Shown piece by piece: positions 5,294 to 59,796 of a DNA stretch of 64,000 bases; positions within the stretch are counted from its first letter, which is position 1, and every line of letters begins with the position of its first letter. The DNA lies in assembly GCA_016212665.1 (NCBI GenBank), contig JACREZ010000013.1, positions 1 through 64,000 on the forward strand, written 5' to 3'. This DNA comes from Ignavibacteriota bacterium. Lineage in GTDB: Bacteria; Bacteroidota; Ignavibacteria; UBA10030; SZUA-254. The notes under the pieces are model-generated. The model saw only the letters and a program-made list of their open reading frames with translations. It searched no databases and had not been told where the DNA came from. The position numbers were made by a program, and so were the translations under genes.

Positions 5294-8143
5294 TTAAAAA
5301 GTAAACGAAGTGCCAAGTTCGATTCTTCTCGGTTCAGAGAAGTTTCCGGGATTGATGTAGTAATCATCAAGCGTGTTATAATATTTGAAATTATACGTCC
5401 TAATGTTTTCTTCAGCCTCCAGTCTGTCAAAGTTGAAGTACGGGTCACCGGAATTCGCGTTCACTGAGCGGGCATTATCTAAATCAAGTAAATTAAAGAC
5501 ACGCATGTAGAACGAAAGGGTCGAACTGCCCAAATGAAAATCCTTGTTCACGCGTAAATCAACATTAAAAATGTTGGGTTTATATTCACTATTATATGGA
5601 TATACATTTTCTTTGACAGCGCTGTTCTTATTGTTGGTTGGTGAATACGGAGTGCCTGTTGAGAAATTCGTAATAACAGACAATCCCCAGTTTTGCGGTT
5701 GAGAATACGCAACAACAACATTAAGTGTATGCGTCTGGTCCCAATCAGCAGGGGCGAGATAGGTTTGGGGTTGCTTCCCGCCAAAGATAGCATTTCTCGA
5801 ATCTGCCGGGTCGCTTGCATTATATTTTGTCATTGAATATGTGTAATCAAGATTTGCCGCGATTCCATCGGAGAAACGTTTTTCTAGTTTCAAAACAACT
5901 CCCTTGGTAAATCCAAAGTCCGTGTTCACATACTTTCTGTAACTTCTGTCTCTTCCAAACACAACAACGTCCGCTGTTTGCGTCCCGACAAGATTTCTGA
6001 AATCTTCAAAGAACATTGTTACATCAGCCGCAATCTCTTCGGTCAATTGTTGTTTCAAGCCGATTTCTCCCTTTACTGTTTTTTGTGGTTCCAAATCAGT
6101 GTTGCCAAACAATCCTTGAATTCCAGAACCGGTTCCGATTTCAAATTCAGGATTGGCGTACATCAATTCATACGAAGGGAGTTGGAAGAAATGTCCGAAG
6201 GAAAAGTGAATTACGCCATCAGCGCTGATGGGGAATGCAAGTCCGAAGCGCGGGCTGATTTGTGTCTTGCTCTTTGCTTTTTTATACCAGTATTCTAAAC
6301 GGTCTGCTACAGTTTTTGTTCGCTCTCCCGCGGCAGTATCCTGAACACCATCTCCATTGTAATCAAAAAATCTATTATCCGGTTTTAACGGGCTATTGAT
6401 ATTCGGGTCATCAACGGTGTATTGATAGTAGAGTGGGTCATTCGGGTCTGAATGTTCATCGTTCAGCACAACACCATCTGGATTGAAGTAATCGAAACGG
6501 AAACCGGCATTCAATATCAAGTTGAATGCTTCAATTTTTGTCTGAAAATATAACGCGCCTTCCGTCGGCTCATGCAAATATTCATCATAACTTTGGCTGG
6601 ATATTGGAGCGACCATCACGTCGTATGGAAATACTTCCAAACCTGCCGAATCAAGTTTCGGTACAAGATTGATATTCTGGTAGAACAATCTGTGTCGTTT
6701 GAAATCGCCGCCAAATTGAACCGCGATTTCTTTTGTGAACTGATTCATCCAATCCAATTTCACTCCCATCGTTCCGGTGTTCCTCTGGAACCGCTCGTGC
6801 TTCGTTCCACCGATTCCAAGCGTGTATGGAGGATTTTGGTTGTTTCGATGGTCAACATACAATGTCGGCATGAAAGGATTCCCCGTGTTAATATCTTCAA
6901 ATAAATAATGACGATAATTTTTGAAGAGATAAGAAAGACTTACATTATAAAAACTTGATGACGATAACGCGTGGTTGATTGTTACAATATTTGAATGTGT
7001 GAAACGAAATCGCTCTAAATTATTATCGGGGGTCATACGAACACTAAAATCAAAATCTCTATACTCTTGGTAATCATAAATATAATTGTAAGAGACTTTT
7101 AAATTCGAGAGGAGACGATATGCTAGTTTACTCTGTAGGAAATTTTTCTTATTTGGATTGAGAGAAACATATTCATCATTACCGGTTTTCCGAATGATAA
7201 AATTTAACTCTGAACTACTCGCGTCTTCAAATGAATAATCATTAAGATTAAAAACTCGCTTCCCCCAATGAAAACCATCGCTACCGAAATACCTCGCGTT
7301 TGCATAAAAATATAACTTATCTGAGATAAGCGGACCGCTTAAACTGACATCAACATTCTTCACAGAGAGCGGACGATAATTTTTCAGGTTCCAGAAAATA
7401 TTATCCCGTTCTGACAAATAACTTCCTGAATACATCTGCACATTACCGGAAATTTTATCTCCGCCATCTTTCGTTACAATGTTGACTATTCCTGACATCG
7501 CCTGCCCATACTCCGCATTGAATGCGCCACTGACAACCTGTAATTCCTGAATTGCATTCGCTCCCAACTCCACGGTGTTGCTTCCATCGTAAGCATCGGA
7601 AACCGGAACGCCATCAATCTGGTAAGCGATTTGTCCTTTTCTTCCACCGCGTAAATGCAAGTCACCGCCTTGAGAAACTATTCCTGCTTGTAACTGAATA
7701 ACATCGCGCATTTCCGTTACGGCAAGATTTGAAATCAGTTCTTTACTCACGATTGATGTTGAAGCGGTTATATCGTGTTGCACCATCGGCTTTTCTGCAA
7801 CAATGACCATCTCTTTTACTTCAACGGTTGTTTCTGTTAATTGGAAATCCTGTTTCGTTGTCAGGTCTATGTTAACGCCAACATTGGTAACACTGACGGA
7901 ATTGTAGCCGATGAGCGATGCCTTCAGCGTGTATGTTGCGGGCGGTACACCGATGATGGAATAATTCCCCTCAAAATCCGTTACTGCACCAAATGCTGTT
8001 CCGACAACATGGATATTCACACCCATGAGTCCTTCAGAATTTTTCGCGTCGGTAACTTTACCGGATATTTTCCCGGTGTTCCCGGCAAAAAGAATGTGAG
8101 AGAAACAGAAAAGAAATACAAAAAGGAGTCGAGCAATCTTCAT
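5294..8143 (-). CDS. TonB-dependent receptor with N-terminal carboxypeptidase-regulatory-like domain
   Basis: A 949-residue outer-membrane receptor. After a signal peptide (MKIARLLFVFLFCFSHILFA), residues ~22-110 form a CarboxypepD_reg-like beta-sandwich (GKISGKVTDAKNSEGLMGVN ... FEGNYSIIGVPPATYTLKAS) typical of SusC/RagA-type receptors. A plug domain follows (~115-230; LHLRGGRKGQIAYQIDGVPV, VVSGAFNAEYGQAMSGIVNI), then a 22-strand-type barrel ending in LGTSFTF with a terminal aromatic. These proteins take up large ligands using energy from TonB-ExbBD. There is no SusD partner; instead it is followed by the 1201-residue protein (12 bp) and the PorV-like gene. The ligand is unknown. It is the first gene of the operon, with the promoter probably in 8144-8400. 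Confidence 0.93.
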   Translation of the reverse strand: MKIARLLFVFLFCFSHILFAGNTGKISGKVTDAKNSEGLMGVNIHVVGTAFGAVTDFEGNYSIIGVPPATYTLKASLIGYNSVSVTNVGVNIDLTTKQDFQLTETTVEVKEMVIVAEKPMVQHDITASTSIVSKELISNLAVTEMRDVIQLQAGIVSQGGDLHLRGGRKGQIAYQIDGVPVSDAYDGSNTVELGANAIQELQVVSGAFNAEYGQAMSGIVNIVTKDGGDKISGNVQMYSGSYLSERDNIFWNLKNYRPLSVKNVDVSLSGPLISDKLYFYANARYFGSDGFHWGKRVFNLNDYSFEDASSSELNFIIRKTGNDEYVSLNPNKKNFLQSKLAYRLLSNLKVSYNYIYDYQEYRDFDFSVRMTPDNNLERFRFTHSNIVTINHALSSSSFYNVSLSYLFKNYRHYLFEDINTGNPFMPTLYVDHRNNQNPPYTLGIGGTKHERFQRNTGTMGVKLDWMNQFTKEIAVQFGGDFKRHRLFYQNINLVPKLDSAGLEVFPYDVMVAPISSQSYDEYLHEPTEGALYFQTKIEAFNLILNAGFRFDYFNPDGVVLNDEHSDPNDPLYYQYTVDDPNINSPLKPDNRFFDYNGDGVQDTAAGERTKTVADRLEYWYKKAKSKTQISPRFGLAFPISADGVIHFSFGHFFQLPSYELMYANPEFEIGTGSGIQGLFGNTDLEPQKTVKGEIGLKQQLTEEIAADVTMFFEDFRNLVGTQTADVVVFGRDRSYRKYVNTDFGFTKGVVLKLEKRFSDGIAANLDYTYSMTKYNASDPADSRNAIFGGKQPQTYLAPADWDQTHTLNVVVAYSQPQNWGLSVITNFSTGTPYSPTNNKNSAVKENVYPYNSEYKPNIFNVDLRVNKDFHLGSSTLSFYMRVFNLLDLDNARSVNANSGDPYFNFDRLEAEENIRTYNFKYYNTLDDYYINPGNFSEPRRIELGTSFTF

Positions 8144-9540: not shown

Positions 9541-9576
9541 AATCACTCTGCGCGTCTCTGCGGTTTATTTAATTTT
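9541..9576 (+). repeat. Intergenic CTCTGCG/CTGCGGTTTA motif, copy 1
   Basis: The spacer before the GH31 gene contains CACTCTGCGCGTCTCTGCGG followed by TTTATTTAA. A similar stretch (TTAGCGTCTTC...CTCTTTGCGGTTTATAAA) occurs before the ammonia-lyase gene at 12069-12108. Both end in GCGGTTTA a few dozen bases before a start codon. Function is unknown; it could be a leader or repeat-family element. Confidence 0.4.
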
Positions 9577-9592
9577 GAATAATCAGATTTCC

Positions 9593-12048
9593 ATGCTTAC
9601 TAAACCTCGACTCCTTCTCCTTTTTTTCCTTTTTCATTTTGCATTACTTCCTCTCAATGGAAATCCATCAGCAACGTTCTTGAGGCAACTCAAACAGACA
9701 ACGGCGCGACATTTTCCTTAGAAGGAGAACAGGTTGATATTTCCATCCTCGCACCGGAAGTCATTAGAGTTCGATATTATCCGGTTGAATATTCCAATGC
9801 AACAGATTTTTCTTGGGCAGTCGTGAACATGAATATCGGTGGAAAGAACTTCAAGTTCGAGAGGTTCGAAGAGAAAACAGTACTCTCCACTTCTCTTCTT
9901 GAACTGAGAGTTGACCACAACCCGTTTCGTCTCTCCATCTACGATAAAAAAGATAGCCTCATCAATCAGGATGACCCGAAGAAAGGAATGGCTCGCTCAG
10001 GAAATGAAATCGCTGTTTGGAAAGTGATGCCGCAGGATGAATTTTATTTTGGACTGGGAGAAAAATCCGGCTCGCTCGACCGGAAAGGAAAATCGTATGC
10101 GAACTGGAACTCCGACATTCCCGCATACAAAGCAGACACCGACCCGCTCTATCAAACAATTCCGTTCTTCTACGGAATCAAAAAGGGAAACGCGTACGGA
10201 ATTTTCTTTGATAATACGTATCGTTCCTATTTCAATTTCGGAAAAGAACATCCCGACCAATATTCGTTCGGCGCGGTTGATGGAGAAATGAATTACTACT
10301 TCATCTATGGACCGAAACCTAAAGACGTTTTGCAAAAATTCAACGCGCTCACCGGGACCATGCCGATGCCGCCGAAATGGTCAATCGGCTTTCAGCAATG
10401 TCGCTGGAGTTACTATCCCGAAACTCGTGTGCGTGAGATTGCAAAAAATTTCCGCGACCGGAAAATTCCGTGCGATGTCATCTATCTCGATATTCACTAC
10501 ATGGATGCATACAAATGCTTTACGTGGGATAACACTCGTTTTCCAAATCCGAAACAAATGACTACTGACCTTGCGAAAGATGGTTTCAAAATCGTTACCA
10601 TCGTTGACCCGGGAATCAAAAAAGAAGAAGGCTATTGGGTGTATGATGAGGGAATGAAAGGAAATCACTTTGCAAAATATCCCGACGGCAAACCGTTTGT
10701 CGGAACAGTGTGGCCAGGCGCATGTGTCTTTCCTGATTTCACGAAACAAGATTCGCGTGATTGGTGGGGTTCACTCTACAAAAGTTTAGTTGATGTTGGT
10801 ATCAAAGGATTTTGGAACGACATGAACGAGCCATCTGTGTTTGATTCACCCAATAAAACATTTGCACTTGAAGTGATGCACGATGCGAACGGCACTCCGT
10901 CCGACCACCGGAAAAATCATAACGTGTACGGAATGCAGATGGCACGCGGAACGTACGAAGGCTTGCTCAAACTCAAACCGAATGAACGCCCCTTTGTTCT
11001 TACCCGCGCAGGGTACGCTGGCGTTCAACGCTACTCTTCAATTTGGACGGGCGACAACATCAGCAACTGGGACCATCTTGAAATGGCAATTCCGATGTGC
11101 CTCGGTCTCAGCATTTCCGGGCAGCCATTTATCGGGACCGATATCGGCGGCTTCGTCGGAAATCCGAGCGGAGAATTGTTTGCTCGCTGGATGCAACTTG
11201 GCGTGTTCACACCGCTCATGCGCGCTCATTCTGTTATTGATGCAATGAACAAAGAGCCGTGGGAATTCGGACCGGAGGTTGAAGCAATCAATAAAAAGTC
11301 AATCGAGATGCGGTACAAATTTTTACCCTACATCTACACACAATTTTACAACGCCGCGACTGACGGCACACCGCTCATGCGTCCGCTCGTGTATGATTAC
11401 CCCGAAGACGGAAACACGCTCTGGAAAGATGATTTGTTTATGTTCGGTGATGCACTTCTCGTCGCTCCTGTTATTGAAGAACGGGCAACAAAGCGAGGCG
11501 TCTATCTTCCCGCAGGCGAATGGTACGATTACTGGTCGAACGAAAAAATTTCCGGCGGGAAAGACATCACTGTTGATGCACCACTCGACAGACTTCCGTT
11601 GTTTGTGAAAGCCGGCTCGATTATTCCGACACAGCAAGTCGTTCAATACACTGACCAGGAACCGATTGACCCGTTGACCTTAGAAATATTTCCTGCTGCC
11701 ATTGCCGAGACTGAGTGGTATGAAGATGATGGTATCAGTCTCGATTATCAACAAGGAAAATATTTCACCCGGGAAGCAACGTTTAGCCAAACGAAAGAGA
11801 ACATGAAAGTTGCTCTTACCCAACCAAAAGGTGACTACAAACCACCGATGCGTACAATCGTCATGAAGTTCAATGCACAATCAAAGAAACCAACGACGGT
11901 TTTCCTTGACCGTGATGAACTACAATTTTCCTCAAAAGAAATCGAACCAACGACGGCGCTTACGTGGGCTTACAATTCTTCACAAAAAATTCTCTGGGTA
12001 CGCATCCCCGATACATTTGGCTTACAAAAAGTTATCGTCCAATATTGA
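9593..12048 (+). CDS. Secreted glycoside hydrolase family 31 alpha-glucosidase, with a frame break in the signal peptide
   Basis: A GH31 enzyme hydrolysing terminal alpha-glucosidic bonds of malto-oligosaccharides. The nucleophile Asp is in GFWNDMNEPSVF (codon 10819-10821) and the acid/base Asp in WTGDN (11053-11055). A galactose-mutarotase-like N domain (...ILAPEVIRVRYYP), a TIM barrel and a C-terminal beta-sandwich are present. The uninterrupted frame can start no earlier than GTG 9823, yet family-like sequence (VLEATQTDNGATFSLEGEQV) continues upstream in that frame to about 9660. A signal peptide, MLTKPRLLLLFFLF, starts at ATG 9593 in another frame. The two join by one -1 shift within T-runs at 9621-9640 (T7, T5, T4). 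The restored protein is about 818 residues. The break may be a one-base sequencing loss, a phase-variable tract or programmed slippage. It follows the ABC ATPase. Confidence 0.88.
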
Positions 12049-12068: not shown

Positions 12069-12108
12069 GCACTTAGCGTCTTCTTTGGGCTCTTTGCGGT
12101 TTATAAAA
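12069..12108 (+). repeat. Intergenic CTTTGCGGTTTA motif, copy 2
   Basis: This lies between the GH31 gene and the ammonia-lyase gene and is related to the element at 9541-9576, with shared GCGTCT...TTGCGGTTTA words. It starts about 20 bp after the GH31 stop and ends about 35 bp before the next start codon. Confidence 0.35.
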
Positions 12109-13801: not shown

Positions 13802-13947
13802 CTCCCCACATCTCTTGCCGATTACAAGATTTTCGCCATCACGCGGATTTCATCCGACCATTGACCGTCCAGAAGGAGTGTGTTGATTGCTGAACCGAAA
13901 CGAATGAGACGAAGATACCACACATCAAATCTCACGTCCGGCAATCC

Positions 13948-14226
13948 GGGCGAGAGTTCCCACGACTGTTTCCGCGAGTCCCCGAATTCGGGCGAGAAGT
14001 CCCTCGACTGTTTCCGCGAGTCCCCGGATTCGGGCGAGAACTCCCACGACTGCTTCCGCGAGTCCCCGGATTCAGCCGAGAAGTCCCACGACTGTTTCCG
14101 CGAGTCCCTGGATTCGGGCGAGAAGTCCCACGACTGTTTCCGCGAGTCCCCGGATTCGGGCGAGAAGTCCCACGACTGCTTCCGCGAGTCCCCGGATTGA
14201 GTCGAAAAGTCCCTCGACTGTTCGGA
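13948..14226. repeat. 42-bp tandem repeat array, six full units plus a partial
   Basis: Units start at 13948, 13990, 14032, 14074, 14116 and 14158, with a decayed seventh from 14200. The unit begins GGGCGAGAAGTCCCACGACT and ends in TTTCCGCGAGTCCCCGGATTC. On the minus strand each unit splits into two related 21-bp halves (GTCGTGGGACTTCTCGCCCG and ATCCGGGGACTCGCGGAAAC), and single 21-bp halves continue to about 14282, so the ancestral period is 21 bp. There are no spacers between units, so it is not a CRISPR. Confidence 0.9.
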
Positions 14227-14377: not shown

Positions 14378-14716
14378 CTAATTCTTAATAACCAAGAGAA
14401 AGTCCTGATATCGGTGTTCTTCGTTTATGTCTGAATCAGATGAACCGACACTGAAATTATACATAAAGTCCACGTGGTCGGAAAACCATTTGTAAGACGG
14501 GTCATCAATCTTACCGGTCACAAGTAGTTCAAACAACCTGTACGCTCCTTTCAGTCTGAATCCATATCCTTCGGTGGTTAAGTCCTTCCTTCCCAAGGGG
14601 TCAACAATGCGCCCGCCCCGGTACAAAAAGAATTCTATGAAATTCACTTCCCAACCTTTTCGTTTCTCTATCTGTTCGCTTGAGTTACCAAGGATAAAAT
14701 CATGGACAACATTCAA
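14378..14716 (-). CDS. Small hypothetical protein, possibly a C-terminal remnant
   Basis: A 112-residue ORF from a TTG start at 14716, with an in-frame TGA just upstream and no Met until near the end. The sequence has protein-like character (NFIEFFLYRGGR, DLTTEGYGFRLKGAYRLFELL, WFSDHVDFMYNFSVGSSDSD) and a membrane-barrel or exported-protein flavour, but no signal peptide. The poor start and the position beside a repeat array suggest the tail of a decayed longer gene. It could also be a chance ORF. No family was recognised. Confidence 0.35.
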   Translation of the reverse strand: MNVVHDFILGNSSEQIEKRKGWEVNFIEFFLYRGGRIVDPLGRKDLTTEGYGFRLKGAYRLFELLVTGKIDDPSYKWFSDHVDFMYNFSVGSSDSDINEEHRYQDFLLVIKN

Positions 14717-14832
14717 TTTTCAACATTTGACACCAACCTGCCAGTCAAACATAAACAATGTATGCTACTATCAAAATTTTACTCGTTAGTAAAAATCACT
14801 AATCGAAGACATGGCATTGTTGGCATGAATCA

Positions 14833-17800
14833 TCATTTCACCAACAACAACTTCTTCACATCCTGAAACATCACTTCACCGTTGGTTTGCTTCCGTGCGG
14901 TGAGGCGGTAGAAATACATTCCCGAACCGAAGTTGCCGGCGTTCCATGTTGTAACATAACTGCCGGGTTCGTAGAGTGTGTTGTTTAATAATGTTGCAAC
15001 TTCCTGTCCAAGGACATTATAGATTTGCAACGTCACCGTCACTGGCTCGGGAAGATTAAACTGAACTGTTGTTGACGGATTAAACGGGTTCGGATAATTC
15101 TGTTCAAGCGAAAATACTTTCGGAAGTTCTGCGCCGGATTGCATTGTCAATTCCACTTTTGTAATTGCAGGATTATCAATCCTCAGCGAGGACTTTCCAT
15201 CCGCCATGATTGTGCCGAGCCGTGTTCCTCGTTCCGCATCGGAAATAGTTATAAACTGAATTTCATTCCCGACTCCCTCGCACTGAATTGTTACAGGATA
15301 AGCGCTTGATTGAATAATAAGTTTCTTGCTCGTTGTTTGTTTGCCGGATAGCAATTCAACAAATGAGTTTGAAGTAAACCGTGCATCGAACGCATCAGTC
15401 GGAGGAACGGGGGGCAATTCAAATTCCGAAATTGAGCGCGTTAGTGAAGATTCGTTGGCAAGATACAATATTTGCTCTCCCCCTTTTCTGTCGCGAATCA
15501 TGAGTTTATTGAATTGGTGAACGTCAGGAAGTTCAAAGGCGTTTTCCTGTTTTGCAAATCCAGAAGCCGTCACAAATAATTTCCCTGCCTGAGTCGTCTT
15601 CACCCAATATCCTTTCCCCGGTCTGATGGAATCGGTCGGGGAATACCCGCCCGCGTACCCGTAATATGCACCTGACACAATACCCGGCGGATTCGATGAG
15701 ATTCCGGAAGGAGCAACCGCCGATGAGATAGAACCGACCATATTCCATCCTGTTGCAACGGTAAATGTGTCCACTGTACGAACAGTCCCTTCCAATCCTA
15801 CTTTCTCAGCACGATAGAACTTCAGCCAGTACCCCAAACTGTTTTTCAATGTCTCCGCCGCGAAGTATCCGTTCTTGTACCCGAATGCCGTAGAAACTGC
15901 ATTCCGGTAGATATAAGTCTTCAAAGAACTTGTTGTTGCATTGAGCGGGAGCGAAACAATATTCCAATTTTGCAATATATTGATGTAAAACGGAATCTTC
16001 TGTACCAGTTGCACACTCTTGATTGTCGGGTCAGTTATCGTTACCGACGATTGCGTTTTCATATTGATATGAAGTTTCGTTCCTCCCGTTGCCGAATCAA
16101 TAAGGAACAACATACCATCTGCTTTCGATTGAAGATTCCATTGTAACTGAATCGGGTAACCGCCTGTGCCGGGTTGAAACGTGCATGTGTATGTGTTGAC
16201 TGTGTTTGTATTTTCTGTGAACGGACGATAATCAATTGCCGTCGGAATTGCGGATGGCAAAATCCACCGGGCGTCAAATGTTCCTGCCGGTGGTGTTACA
16301 CCAAGTTGAATTTCACCAAGTGAAGGGTCTAACCCTGTCGTCGCGGCTTTCAAGGCACCGAATGAGAGTGCCGAAGTTTCGGCTCCATTATCCGTCACAG
16401 TGAAATTCGCGACAAATTCCTGCGGGTGTTTCGGAAAATGGGAAGCATCTCCCAAATACCATGTCATAAACTCTTTCACTGAATCAAGTCCGGTCGCCAT
16501 ATACTCTTCATCAATAAAATCCGAATTACCTAAGTTGATGAGAAGGTTACTTGAGTCTTTGAAGAACGCAACCTCGTACGGTGACATGTATGATTCTTCC
16601 TCGGCATAGCGGAGAAAGACAGTTGCTTTGTAGTTACTTCCACCGACCGCCGTTCCGACATAATATCGTCTGACATATATCGAATCGGGCATTAATGGAG
16701 AATAAAAATTCGGGAACGAAGTTAAAAGCACATGAGTGGGCGTTGTTCCACCCGGATAAAATCTCACTGTCGTTACAGGACTTTCAAACCGATAGGTTGA
16801 GGTCGAACCGGAAGCAATCGCTCGCTTCACAGTTCCGCCGTTGAAATATCCGTTACCGAAAATTGCCGCGGTATCTGTCGTAACAATCGAAATTGTATCG
16901 TTGCCACGAACGTTGAGAGGCGCATTCAGCGATAAATATTTATTGATATACACATTCCCGCTCGTGCTGACTTTCGAACTTTCCGTTAAGGTTATATGGC
17001 TAAACGTTCCCTTTATAGTTCCTCCTCCATTTAATGTCAAGGTAGAGTTAGCCTGATTCAATTCGCCATTTGTATTGATGATAAATCCGCCGCCGGAGAT
17101 AATATCCGTTTTCGAAGCCGCATCAACTTCGAATCGTCCGTCGAGAATAATTCCATTTGAAACAATCAACTCGGAAATTCCAGAACCAAGAACCAATTGT
17201 CCTCCGGTTCCAACATTCAGTGAAGCAATGTTTATCCGTTGAGCCGTATGTCGTAACGTTGCCCTTCTGGTTGCGGCGGGAATATAAACGCTGTCTGCAA
17301 ACTCCGGAACTCCTGTCGGCTGCCAGTTGAGTTCATTGTCCCAGAGAGAATCCCTACTACCCGTCCACTTCCGTAACGAGAGTGGAGATAACGCTGAAGA
17401 AAGAATGGTATTTCCTTGTCCGGCGGCGAAAAGCAATGCTCCGGTCGTTGTGGGAATAACCTGCACATTGAACAGTGTATTCTGTGTGCCGGATGATTGT
17501 AGTTTCCATGTCGTCCCTGCATCAGTCGAAGCAAGAATAACACCGTAATCTCCAACCGCCCAACCATTCACTCCATTGTTATACATTGCAATATCGTACA
17601 GCAACTCTGATGTTGTACCATCCGTAACTTGCATTTGATGCCAGGTAGCGCCACCATCATTCGTTCGTAGTATCACCCCGAAATCACCCGAAACAAAAAC
17701 AGTATTCTGGTCAACAATATCAATTGAATACAAGGGGAAGTTCACGCCAGATTCCTGAAGAGTCCAGTTGTCTCCTCCATCAATTGTTTTCATAATCGTT

Positions 17801-19212
17801 CCGTCGGTACCGACAGTCCAGCCAATACTCCTATTAAAGAATTTAATTTTTTGCAAATCAGAACCGACATCGGTTGTTTCATGTTGCCAGACTAGCCCGC
17901 CATTCGTCGTTCTTAAAATTATTCCGAATGTACTTCCGCAAGCCCAGCCATACGTTCCATCAACAAAATAGACTGAGTACAACGGCAACATATCTTCCTC
18001 CAAGCCGGAAGTTTGTCGGGAAAAATTTACACCGTTTCCGGTTTTGAGGATAAGTCCGCTATCACCGACAACCCAGCCGGTGTTTTCATTCACAAACATG
18101 ACACCGTACATCCAAAGATAATATCCGAGGTCTAACTTTCTCCAACTATATCCGCCGTCTGTTGTTTTCAAGCAAGCGCCTTCTTCACCGACCGAGTAAC
18201 CAACTTTTGTGCTGGCAAAATATGTTTGAGACATCTCTGTTTTCGGCTCTGTGGAAAGGTGAATCCATGTTGAGCCGCCATTTGTTGTTTTGAAAATTGT
18301 ACCGAAATCACCCATCGCCCAACCATTGGTCGCGCTGGAAAATCTGACGTGGAAAAAATCCTTGTACGTATCAACATTTTCAAATAATTCCCATGTTGAA
18401 CCGGCATCGGTTGATTTCAACACCATGCCAAATGAACCGGCAATATAAGCAACGGTCGAAGTGACAAAGTGAACTCCCCACAATGTTCCGAATCCTAAAT
18501 TTTCAACGGGCAACCACGAAGCGCCTCCATCGTTCGTTTTATATACCAAGCCGTAATCACCGGAAATAATTCCCGTTGATGTTGAGGTGAAACTCATTCC
18601 ATACAAAAATCGTGTTGTGGGAGAAGTAAGACTTTGCCATGTTGTTCCCCCGTTGGTCGTCTTTAAAATTTTCCCGCCGGAACCAACCGCAAATCCCGTC
18701 GATGAATTGAGAAATTGAATTGTCCAGAGTAGCGCGTTGGTAGAAGTCGTCTGAGGAGTCCACGTTGTTCCACCATCGGTTGTTTTGATAATTGTTCCAT
18801 ATTCTCCACACGCCCAACCCGTTGTTGAAGAAATAAAATTGACAGAGTAAATAAACGCGGCAGTTGGCAATTGTTGTCGAATCCAACTGACACCTCCGTT
18901 GGTCGTTTTCAACATCACACCGTTTTCACCCGCAACCCAACCGAGGGTTCCGGTAAAAAAATGAATTGCGTGGAATTCTTCCGTAGAGCCATTCAGATTA
19001 ATATCTACGTTCCATGTCTGTCCTCCGTTGACCGAACTCATGAATGTCCCCATCAATCCGCACGCGAAAAGCGTGTCCTGATTTACAACAGAAATTTCGT
19101 TGAGAACATTTCCTTGCGGCAACGGACTCACCGGCTGCCACGAAGTTTGTTGAGTGTGAACAAACGAAATGTAGATGAAAAGAATACTGAAAGAATAAAC
19201 GATGCGTCTCAT
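14833..19212 (-). CDS. Giant T9SS-secreted protein with 13-repeat Ycf48/BNR beta-propeller
   Basis: A 1459-residue exported protein. After a signal peptide (MRRIVYSFSILFIYISFVHT) there is a long propeller region (~25-615) with about 13 repeats carrying the BNR/Asp-box-like signature T(T/N)(N/D)GG-x-(T/S)W, as in the Ycf48/HCF136 and sortilin-VPS10 families. A chassis shared with the proteins at 46955 and 50977 follows: an LWDNELNWQPTGVP module at ~625, an YRFESP module, two WN(I/M)VxS modules (~1085-1230) and the T9SS C-terminal domain from ~1365 (SLEQNYPNPFNPSTTVQF ... ending KKLLLVK). Ycf48 itself is a photosystem II assembly factor, but here the fold is an extracellular propeller. The protein is probably surface-attached, binding a polymer or protein; no catalytic residues were identified. 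It is preceded by a probable anti-sigma factor gene. Confidence 0.88.
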   Translation of the reverse strand: MRRIVYSFSILFIYISFVHTQQTSWQPVSPLPQGNVLNEISVVNQDTLFACGLMGTFMSSVNGGQTWNVDINLNGSTEEFHAIHFFTGTLGWVAGENGVMLKTTNGGVSWIRQQLPTAAFIYSVNFISSTTGWACGEYGTIIKTTDGGTTWTPQTTSTNALLWTIQFLNSSTGFAVGSGGKILKTTNGGTTWQSLTSPTTRFLYGMSFTSTSTGIISGDYGLVYKTNDGGASWLPVENLGFGTLWGVHFVTSTVAYIAGSFGMVLKSTDAGSTWELFENVDTYKDFFHVRFSSATNGWAMGDFGTIFKTTNGGSTWIHLSTEPKTEMSQTYFASTKVGYSVGEEGACLKTTDGGYSWRKLDLGYYLWMYGVMFVNENTGWVVGDSGLILKTGNGVNFSRQTSGLEEDMLPLYSVYFVDGTYGWACGSTFGIILRTTNGGLVWQHETTDVGSDLQKIKFFNRSIGWTVGTDGTIMKTIDGGDNWTLQESGVNFPLYSIDIVDQNTVFVSGDFGVILRTNDGGATWHQMQVTDGTTSELLYDIAMYNNGVNGWAVGDYGVILASTDAGTTWKLQSSGTQNTLFNVQVIPTTTGALLFAAGQGNTILSSALSPLSLRKWTGSRDSLWDNELNWQPTGVPEFADSVYIPAATRRATLRHTAQRINIASLNVGTGGQLVLGSGISELIVSNGIILDGRFEVDAASKTDIISGGGFIINTNGELNQANSTLTLNGGGTIKGTFSHITLTESSKVSTSGNVYINKYLSLNAPLNVRGNDTISIVTTDTAAIFGNGYFNGGTVKRAIASGSTSTYRFESPVTTVRFYPGGTTPTHVLLTSFPNFYSPLMPDSIYVRRYYVGTAVGGSNYKATVFLRYAEEESYMSPYEVAFFKDSSNLLINLGNSDFIDEEYMATGLDSVKEFMTWYLGDASHFPKHPQEFVANFTVTDNGAETSALSFGALKAATTGLDPSLGEIQLGVTPPAGTFDARWILPSAIPTAIDYRPFTENTNTVNTYTCTFQPGTGGYPIQLQWNLQSKADGMLFLIDSATGGTKLHINMKTQSSVTITDPTIKSVQLVQKIPFYINILQNWNIVSLPLNATTSSLKTYIYRNAVSTAFGYKNGYFAAETLKNSLGYWLKFYRAEKVGLEGTVRTVDTFTVATGWNMVGSISSAVAPSGISSNPPGIVSGAYYGYAGGYSPTDSIRPGKGYWVKTTQAGKLFVTASGFAKQENAFELPDVHQFNKLMIRDRKGGEQILYLANESSLTRSISEFELPPVPPTDAFDARFTSNSFVELLSGKQTTSKKLIIQSSAYPVTIQCEGVGNEIQFITISDAERGTRLGTIMADGKSSLRIDNPAITKVELTMQSGAELPKVFSLEQNYPNPFNPSTTVQFNLPEPVTVTLQIYNVLGQEVATLLNNTLYEPGSYVTTWNAGNFGSGMYFYRLTARKQTNGEVMFQDVKKLLLVK

Positions 19213-20251: not shown

Positions 20252-20300
20252 GAATGACAAATGACAAATGACTAATGACTAATGACTAATGACTATTGAC
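20252..20300. repeat. Heptanucleotide tandem repeat, 7 copies (NAATGAC)
   Basis: Seven uninterrupted 7-bp units (GAATGAC, AAATGAC x2, TAATGAC x3, TATTGAC) in the 133-bp spacer between the ECF sigma factor and the anti-sigma-like gene. This is the clearest heptamer array of the window. Confidence 0.85.
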
Positions 20301-20324
20301 TTTCAACATACAAACCGCACACTA

Positions 20325-57510: not shown

Positions 57511-59796
57511 CTACCGTTTAGCAGCTATAATCAAGTCTGCTTCATTCCGATACGTTTGTAAATCAATATCATTTGTTATAAATGCCTCATCATATTCCGG
57601 ATTCATAGCACGTGCACGCGAAAACCAGGAAATCATTTCTTGCTTCTTACCCAGAATTGCATACACCCGCGCTGCACCCATGAGATTGTTTTCTGAGGAA
57701 TCCATTTTCACTGCTGTCAGTATATTTGAAATTGCTTTTTCATTTTCTCCAAGTCGGGCGGAAAATAATCCAACAAAATAATAATGTTCTGCAACATTGG
57801 GATTGAGCTTTGTATTTTCTTCTGCAAGACTTAGTCCATCACGCCAGGCTTTTACCGCAACATCCTTTTTCGCGCGACGATATTGTGTTATCCCCAATGT
57901 ATAAATCAACCGATAATTCGAAGGCTCATACTTTAAGCATGCTACTATTGTTGATTCTGCCTTTGTATAATTACCTTTATTGAGAAAAAGAATACCGAGA
58001 TATTCAGCGGTGATAGGATTCGCCGGATTGAGTTTCAATGCATTTTCATAAGAAAGAAGCGCGCTGTCTTGTTTACCCAATATCTCGTACAGGTATGCCA
58101 AGTTAATCCATGGTAATTCATGTTCCGGATTTAATTTTGTGGCTCGCCTGAAGACTTCAACAGACTCATCATATTTCTTCATCATGGCGTAACCAACAGC
58201 TAAGTTGACGGAAATGTTATAGTTTGTCGGTTCTATTTCAAACGCTTTCAACAACACACTGATTGCTTTTGGGGGGTCATTAAGATTTAATAAGTATTCA
58301 TTCGCTAAGGTGACATATGCCCGCATCAGATTAGGATCCATTTGAATTGAACGTTCCAAATATTCCACTCCCTTTTTTCTATCTCCTCGCTCGATGTTCA
58401 GTCGACCGAGCAACAAATATGCTTCAGAATTTGTACTATCGAAAGATAATACTTTTCGAATATTTTTTTCTGCCTCAATTAACCATCTCTCATTTAAATC
58501 ATAGCCTCGTTCGTGATTCAGTAACTGTGTGCTTGCTAGTTTTATGTATGCAGGGAGAAATTTTTCATCTTTTTCAATCGCCTGAGTTAGTTCGGATATT
58601 GCTAATTGGTTATCTTCCTTCCGTTCTCGTCGGTCATATTCTAATCCAGCCATGAAATGCTCATACGCTTCCGGCTTCGGAACATAATCTCCCTTGATTT
58701 GTGATTCAAATAATGAAACAACTTGTCGAAGTATTTCACCTCGAATTTTCGACATATCCTTTTTCTTAAGATAAGAGAAATCCCGGCTTTCAATGTCCCG
58801 TTGTTCATGTGGTTCAACCAATCGGAACCGTATCGTTAAATCATCATCTTGAAATTCTAAAGACCCTCTTAACAAATACCGCACATTTAATTCTTTGGCA
58901 ATTTCATCTTCTCCTTTTTTAGTGTTTCTATATCCGTCAGTACTTCCTGATTGAAGAACTTTAATATGAGTCATGTTTTGCAAGGAAGTACGAATGTCAT
59001 CTGTAAAACTACCAGCGAGATATGAAAAAGATGAGTCACCTTTATAGTCGAATGGTAAAACTGCTAACGAATTGGGCGGTGGTTCCGGCGCAAACACAAA
59101 AATATAAACTGCAGCAAGAACAAGAATGGTTGCAAATCCATATGCAATTCTCTTCTTCGTTTTTTTTCGCTTGAGGATTGTTTTCGCCACATACAAGTTT
59201 GTTGAAAATTTCCCGCTCGCCTTGTCTGTCGGAATGACAATGATTTGATAAACTTTTATCGGTTGGTCAATTCCCTTCAACTGCGGGACACCAAGATTCA
59301 ACACCTTGATGTTTAGTTTCATCCTTACTTGCTGATAGACACTTTCCGATATGTTGACACCGCCAACTTCAGCAATGGATTGAACACGGGAAGCGATATT
59401 GACGCCATCACCAAAAACATCGTTTTCTTTAACAAACACATCACCAAGATGGACGCCGATTCGAACGGTGATTTTTTCGTCTTCGTTTTTGATTTGGGAA
59501 TTGTATTGAAGGAAACTTTGCTGAACTTCGACTGCGCATTGAGTCGCACTCACAACGCTGTCGAAGGTAACAAGAAATGCATCCCCGATGGTTTTAATAA
59601 CAACGCCTCCGTACTTATGTACTGCTTCGGTCATCATCCTGTTATGAATGCCGAGCATACGCATGGTGCCTACTTCATCACGCTGCATTTTGCCGGAAAA
59701 ATCTTTGATGTCCGTAAACATGATTGCGCAAAGTTTACGGACACCTTTTTCCGATTCCTGATTGTGTATTGAGTTTATATTGTTTTCGTCAGCCAT
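57511..59796 (-). CDS. Adenylate/guanylate cyclase with TolB-like and TPR domains
   Basis: 761 residues. Class III cyclase domain at ~25-190 with metal-binding Asp in FTDIKDFS and GDAFLVTF, and the NIASRVQ motif (Asn, Arg). One transmembrane helix (~217-236, FATILVLAAVYIFVFA), then a TolB-like beta-propeller-precursor domain (~245-365: LAVLPFDYKGDSSFSYLAGS FTDDI). At least nine TPRs run to the C-terminus. The substrate (ATP or GTP) is not decided here. The domain order cyclase-TM-TolB_N-TPR is a known type of signal protein in soil and marine bacteria. The cyclase is cytoplasmic and the TPR part probably periplasmic. Monocistronic. Confidence 0.9.
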   Translation of the reverse strand: MADENNINSIHNQESEKGVRKLCAIMFTDIKDFSGKMQRDEVGTMRMLGIHNRMMTEAVHKYGGVVIKTIGDAFLVTFDSVVSATQCAVEVQQSFLQYNSQIKNEDEKITVRIGVHLGDVFVKENDVFGDGVNIASRVQSIAEVGGVNISESVYQQVRMKLNIKVLNLGVPQLKGIDQPIKVYQIIVIPTDKASGKFSTNLYVAKTILKRKKTKKRIAYGFATILVLAAVYIFVFAPEPPPNSLAVLPFDYKGDSSFSYLAGSFTDDIRTSLQNMTHIKVLQSGSTDGYRNTKKGEDEIAKELNVRYLLRGSLEFQDDDLTIRFRLVEPHEQRDIESRDFSYLKKKDMSKIRGEILRQVVSLFESQIKGDYVPKPEAYEHFMAGLEYDRRERKEDNQLAISELTQAIEKDEKFLPAYIKLASTQLLNHERGYDLNERWLIEAEKNIRKVLSFDSTNSEAYLLLGRLNIERGDRKKGVEYLERSIQMDPNLMRAYVTLANEYLLNLNDPPKAISVLLKAFEIEPTNYNISVNLAVGYAMMKKYDESVEVFRRATKLNPEHELPWINLAYLYEILGKQDSALLSYENALKLNPANPITAEYLGILFLNKGNYTKAESTIVACLKYEPSNYRLIYTLGITQYRRAKKDVAVKAWRDGLSLAEENTKLNPNVAEHYYFVGLFSARLGENEKAISNILTAVKMDSSENNLMGAARVYAILGKKQEMISWFSRARAMNPEYDEAFITNDIDLQTYRNEADLIIAAKR

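Follow-up and report, generated by a model that had tools for sequence, protein, structure and literature searches.

A GH31 alpha-glucosidase gene of an Ignavibacteriota bacterium with its signal peptide out of frame, probably through a recent frameshift mutation

The window analysed here, a stretch of 64,000 nucleotides of contig C13 from a 3.9-Mb, 45-contig genome, contains a gene for a GH31 alpha-glucosidase whose putative signal peptide and enzyme lie in different reading frames. This raises the question of whether the gene was broken by a mutation, whether a base is missing from the consensus, or whether export of the enzyme is governed by a change of frame. Searches of open-access papers, at the level of titles and abstracts, turned up no precedent for this frame arrangement.

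The frame opened by ATG 9593 reads MLTKPRLLLLFFLFHFALLPLNGNPSATFLRQLKQTTARHFP and ends at the TAG at 9719-9721. This ORF (9593 to 9721, on the plus strand like the other features of this gene) starts with the n- and h-region MLTKPRLLLLFFLF..., in which a basic n-region is followed by a Leu/Phe-rich core (MLTKPRLLLLFFLFHFALLPLNGN...), and as sequenced it yields a 42-residue peptide. The enzyme frame is -1 relative to ATG 9593. It is closed on its upstream side by the TAA at 9601-9603 and stays open for 814 codons, from 9604 to 12048, and no ATG, GTG or TTG occurs in it between 9604 and the GTG at 9823. The enzyme frame reads ...PFSFCITSSQWKSISNVLEATQTDNG, in which the end of a signal peptide and a mature start are recognisable, but in the wrong frame with respect to ATG 9593. 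By homology, the mature protein starts near the Q at 9655. Resemblance to the family can be followed upstream in the enzyme frame as far as QWKSI at 9655, or weakly as far as FxFC at about 9634, and an independent codon-usage HMM extended coding back to 9645 without encountering a start codon. The anatomy proposed in the preliminary description was therefore borne out, namely a signal-peptide start at ATG 9593 in a frame closed at 9719, a mature enzyme in the next frame with a TAA at 9601, family-like sequence to about 9660 and a T7 run at 9621-9627; the accompanying T5 and T4 runs lie at 9630-9634 and 9637-9640. Upstream of the gene, TAATTTTG (9570 to 9577), 15 nt before the ATG, resembles TAnnTTTG, the -7 promoter consensus of Bacteroidota; the resemblance is suggestive only, and a sigma-70 promoter scan gave no match.

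The enzyme frame carries the complete GH31 set of Pfam domains (N-domain, TIM barrel, C-terminal domain and DUF5110; families PF13802, PF01055, PF21365 and PF17137), with matches far above the cut-offs. The WNDMNEP motif at 10813-10833, of the WxDMNE type, is intact, and is taken here, from established GH31 knowledge, to be the region of the catalytic nucleophile. The closest solved structures are 6jr6, 6jr7 and 6jr8. The gene is predicted to be that of a secreted GH31 alpha-glucosidase starting at ATG 9593. The N-terminal domain (PF13802, Gal_mutarotas_2) spans 9733 to 10233, that is residues 44-210 of the open frame, and the first conventional start of the enzyme frame, GTG 9823-9825, is residue 74, inside this domain. 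As a start there would cut about 30 residues off the domain, GTG 9823 is not a credible native start.

The same-genus ortholog L004 (genome G002) is 88% identical in amino acids to the window enzyme and, as in the window, is preceded by a gene for an UgpC/MalK-type ATPase. Its N-terminus, MNNRTRPFLLFFLFTFYFCLAPAQWKSIGNVLEATQTDDG, is read in a single frame, and its signal peptide, MNNRTRPFLLFFLFTFYFCLAPA-QWKSIGN, joins AQWKSIGN directly; the out-of-frame signal-peptide ORF of the window aligns with it. Moreover, every readable ortholog at the family and order level (L005-L024, 42-62% identity) has an in-frame signal peptide that leads straight into the conserved QW-SIG or an equivalent of it; L026 is masked in that region and L025 is without its N-terminus. 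The window gene is the sole broken one among the orthologs checked. More distant GH31 proteins of Pedobacter and Flavobacteriaceae (within L039-L112) have no signal peptide, whereas L004-L024 have one, so that export characterises this clade and the enzyme is located differently from one clade to another.

These signal-peptide-free relatives, together with the position of GTG 9823 as first conventional in-frame start, would fit a cytoplasmic enzyme made from that GTG or from a rare non-canonical start. Such a protein would lack the conserved QW-SIG segment besides part of the Gal_mutarotas_2 domain, and the HMM placed coding signal 177 nt further upstream; this origin is considered extremely unlikely. 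Of the earlier suggestion that the enzyme might be made only from GTG 9823, the predicted loss of part of the N-domain stands and the production itself does not seem probable. Peptides from QWKSISNVLEATQTDNGATFSLEGEQVDISILAPEVIR, if present in a proteome, would indicate that the upstream part is made.

The in-frame sister ortholog and the ortholog group as a whole support a single -1 discrepancy within 9604-9718, as had been proposed. The distance from the ATG to the conserved TGG measures 68 nt in the window, against 75 nt in L004, and is thus one short modulo 3. The best alignments to L004 place the gap or gaps in the C/T-rich tract at 9610 to 9641, which holds the T7, T5 and T4 runs. A single 7-nt gap, positioned anywhere in approximately 9632-9641, gave 48/68 matches, while a 1-nt gap in T7 combined with a 6-nt gap gave 50/68. 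The T7 of the window corresponds to T8 in L004, which at the tract reads CTTTTTACTTTTTAC, with a tandem CTTTTTA that is absent from the window. The lesion thus most likely lies in 9610-9641, where the two gap models fit about equally, and it can be either a homopolymer slip or the contraction of a 7-nt repeat.

Several repeats were noted in the sampled DNA. A dispersed repeat invading the signal-peptide region was considered in view of a 23-nt exact match to the signal-peptide tract at G000:C22:11185-11207. This match sits between tRNA genes, and its 16-nt core has only 4 copies genome-wide, against 0 in a reversed control, so it was regarded as a minor coincidence or small repeat and not as the cause of the shift. 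Related intergenic sequences lie on either side of the GH31 gene, at 9548-9570 and 12074-12104 (CTCTGCGCGTCTCTGCGGTTTAT and CTCTTTGCGGTTTAT); the pattern for CTCTTTGCGGTTTAT occurs 7 times genome-wide with one mismatch allowed. Elsewhere in the window, a 42-bp minisatellite of 6.6 copies with a 21-bp sub-period and several open frames lies at 13947-14222, downstream of a histidine ammonia-lyase gene, and similar short-period repeats were seen in L128 (about 7490-7700, minus strand), L171 (about 14600-15050) and L120 (about 10360-10560). At 20253-20301, in an intergenic region near a sigma-factor-like ORF, AATGACT is repeated seven times in tandem (95% matches), a unit of 7 bp whose number of copies could vary.

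The age of the break was approached through the constraint on the mature enzyme. Compared with L004, dS was 0.86 and dN 0.065, giving a dN/dS of 0.076 (0.128 in the N-domain and 0.058 in the barrel), and the enzyme body is thus under strong purifying selection. No nonsense change was seen on the window branch, where about 45 would be expected without constraint, so that any relaxed period would cover less than about 7% of that branch. A conserved body free of stops means that the break is either young or unreal. Polarised amino acid changes numbered 19 for the window branch and 11 for the sister branch, which hints at relaxation without reaching significance. At otherwise invariant positions, the corresponding numbers were 6/185 and 1/180 (binomial p of about 0.13), again a non-significant hint.

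An unreal break would be one in which a base was lost from the T-rich tract of the consensus, the real gene being an ordinary in-frame secreted GH31. The break does sit in a homopolymer-rich tract, a 1-nt gap falls, in one of the best alignments, in the run that is T8 in L004 and T7 in the window, and the enzyme body appears fully functional. The frequency of such breaks in the rest of the genome bears directly on this point. The codon-usage HMM was applied to 364 kb and then to 1.16 Mb of the same genome (1.08 Mb coding), comprising 656 coding segments longer than 450 nt. Coding signal at least 75 nt upstream of the first in-frame start was found in 2 of the 656 segments, the GH31 gene and L166:18016, which is prfB. 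This demonstrated that the two-frame signature of the GH31 gene is not due to chance. The prfB gene (L166, about 17950-19051; G000:C3, about 57950-59051) has the classical +1 element CGGAGGTATCTTTGAC and was recovered blindly; it is a true programmed frameshift and serves as an internal control for the scan. Further HMM candidates could be put down to overlaps within operons, to adjacent genes, to repeats between genes or to noise. The 1.16 Mb showed no further unexplained frame break, in a scan that is not exhaustive, since under stricter settings on the 364 kb 41 of 80 planted mid-gene deletions, about half, gave a same-strand frame switch nearby. Meanwhile, 260 A/T runs of at least 7 lie inside intact coding segments. 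A single unexplained break beside 260 in-frame runs suggests that indel errors are rare in this assembly, which favours a true mutation. A sequencing loss, one of the causes initially put forward, is judged rather unlikely in a genome otherwise free of such breaks, although it is the next most likely explanation after a recent mutation.

The same tract could also be read as a regulatory device. Control of export by frame changes in the T tract, be it T7/T8 phase variation or -1 recoding at U UUU UUC, is considered improbable as a whole; if it were true, only a fraction of cells or of translation events would export the enzyme. Under phase variation, slipped-strand changes of the T tract would turn export on and off. 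The difference between T7 in the window and T8 in the sister species, which falls in the signal peptide of an enzyme of the cell surface or periplasm, is compatible with this. Contingency loci, however, carry a long repeat conserved among relatives, and a run of 7 bases is short for such a locus. Most orthologs (L005, L006, L008, L010 and L015-L022) have no T run of at least 5 at this place, which indicates that the tract is not maintained, and the 255 A/T runs of 7-8 inside other genes show how common a run of this length is. The phase-variable switch suggested at the outset found no positive support, and it is deemed very unlikely.

Programmed -1 ribosomal frameshifting, or slippage of RNA polymerase at U7, would instead provide some full-length exported enzyme. 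U UUU UUC at 9622-9628 is a canonical X XXY YYZ heptamer in the proper register; worked out by hand, slipping by -1 at this site would give MLTKPRLLLLFF-PFSFCITSS-QWKSISN, a plausible signal peptide. Such heptamers are commonplace, however: the sampled coding sequence contains 40 in-frame copies of TTTTTTC, and about 400 of the seven heptamers considered taken together. The downstream RNA fold was only slightly better than shuffled sequences (z = -1.5, with 15/200 shuffles as good), no Shine-Dalgarno-like stimulator was noticed upstream on reading, and the two-frame arrangement is found in none of the readable orthologs, all of which are in frame. This last proposal of the preliminary description therefore gained no positive support either, and recoding appears even less probable than phase variation.

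Taken together, these data moderately favour a recent frameshift mutation of the lineage that was sequenced, ahead of a consensus error and well ahead of a built-in switch. On this view the C/T-rich tract of the signal peptide changed in length not long ago, through the loss of 1 nt from a T run or through a short contraction, for instance of 7 nt, and the export signal thereby lost its register with the enzyme, so that ATG 9593 would now give only the 42-residue peptide and the full-length exported enzyme would be absent or nearly so. Both the reality of the mutation, as against a consensus error, and the loss of export are inferred from sequence. The in-frame signal peptides of L004 and of all readable family- and order-level orthologs speak for a recent mutation, as do the open body with its intact catalytic motifs and low dN/dS, and the rarity of other breaks; the strong conservation of the body would be equally expected if the gene were intact in living cells. 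Moreover, a second, distant GH31 gene with an in-frame signal peptide and a GTG start is present in the same genome (G000:C2:106885-109122), and it may make the loss of export tolerable. A recent real mutation was missing among the options first offered for this locus; the anatomy and the -1 discrepancy proposed there are retained.

Should the break be real, one alpha-glucosidase has only just ceased to be exported in this lineage, which retains a second GH31. The locus is also an annotation hazard, as automatic calling would give a truncated cytosolic enzyme from GTG 9823 although the family is secreted. Apart from these two aspects the case is ordinary.

The window gene shares all four domains and the catalytic motifs with the GH31 alpha-glucosidase family, and differs from its closest orthologs in having the signal peptide out of frame. 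With prfB, the gene of release factor 2, it shares main-frame coding signal upstream of any start codon. But prfB shifts by +1 at the conserved CGGAGGTATCTTTGAC element, while the GH31 gene needs a -1 shift, has no evident stimulator and shows an arrangement seen in no relative. No difference was identified from young pseudogenes, i.e. recently frameshifted bacterial genes: in both, the length of a low-complexity tract has changed once, the ORF is otherwise intact and constrained, and sister species have intact orthologs.
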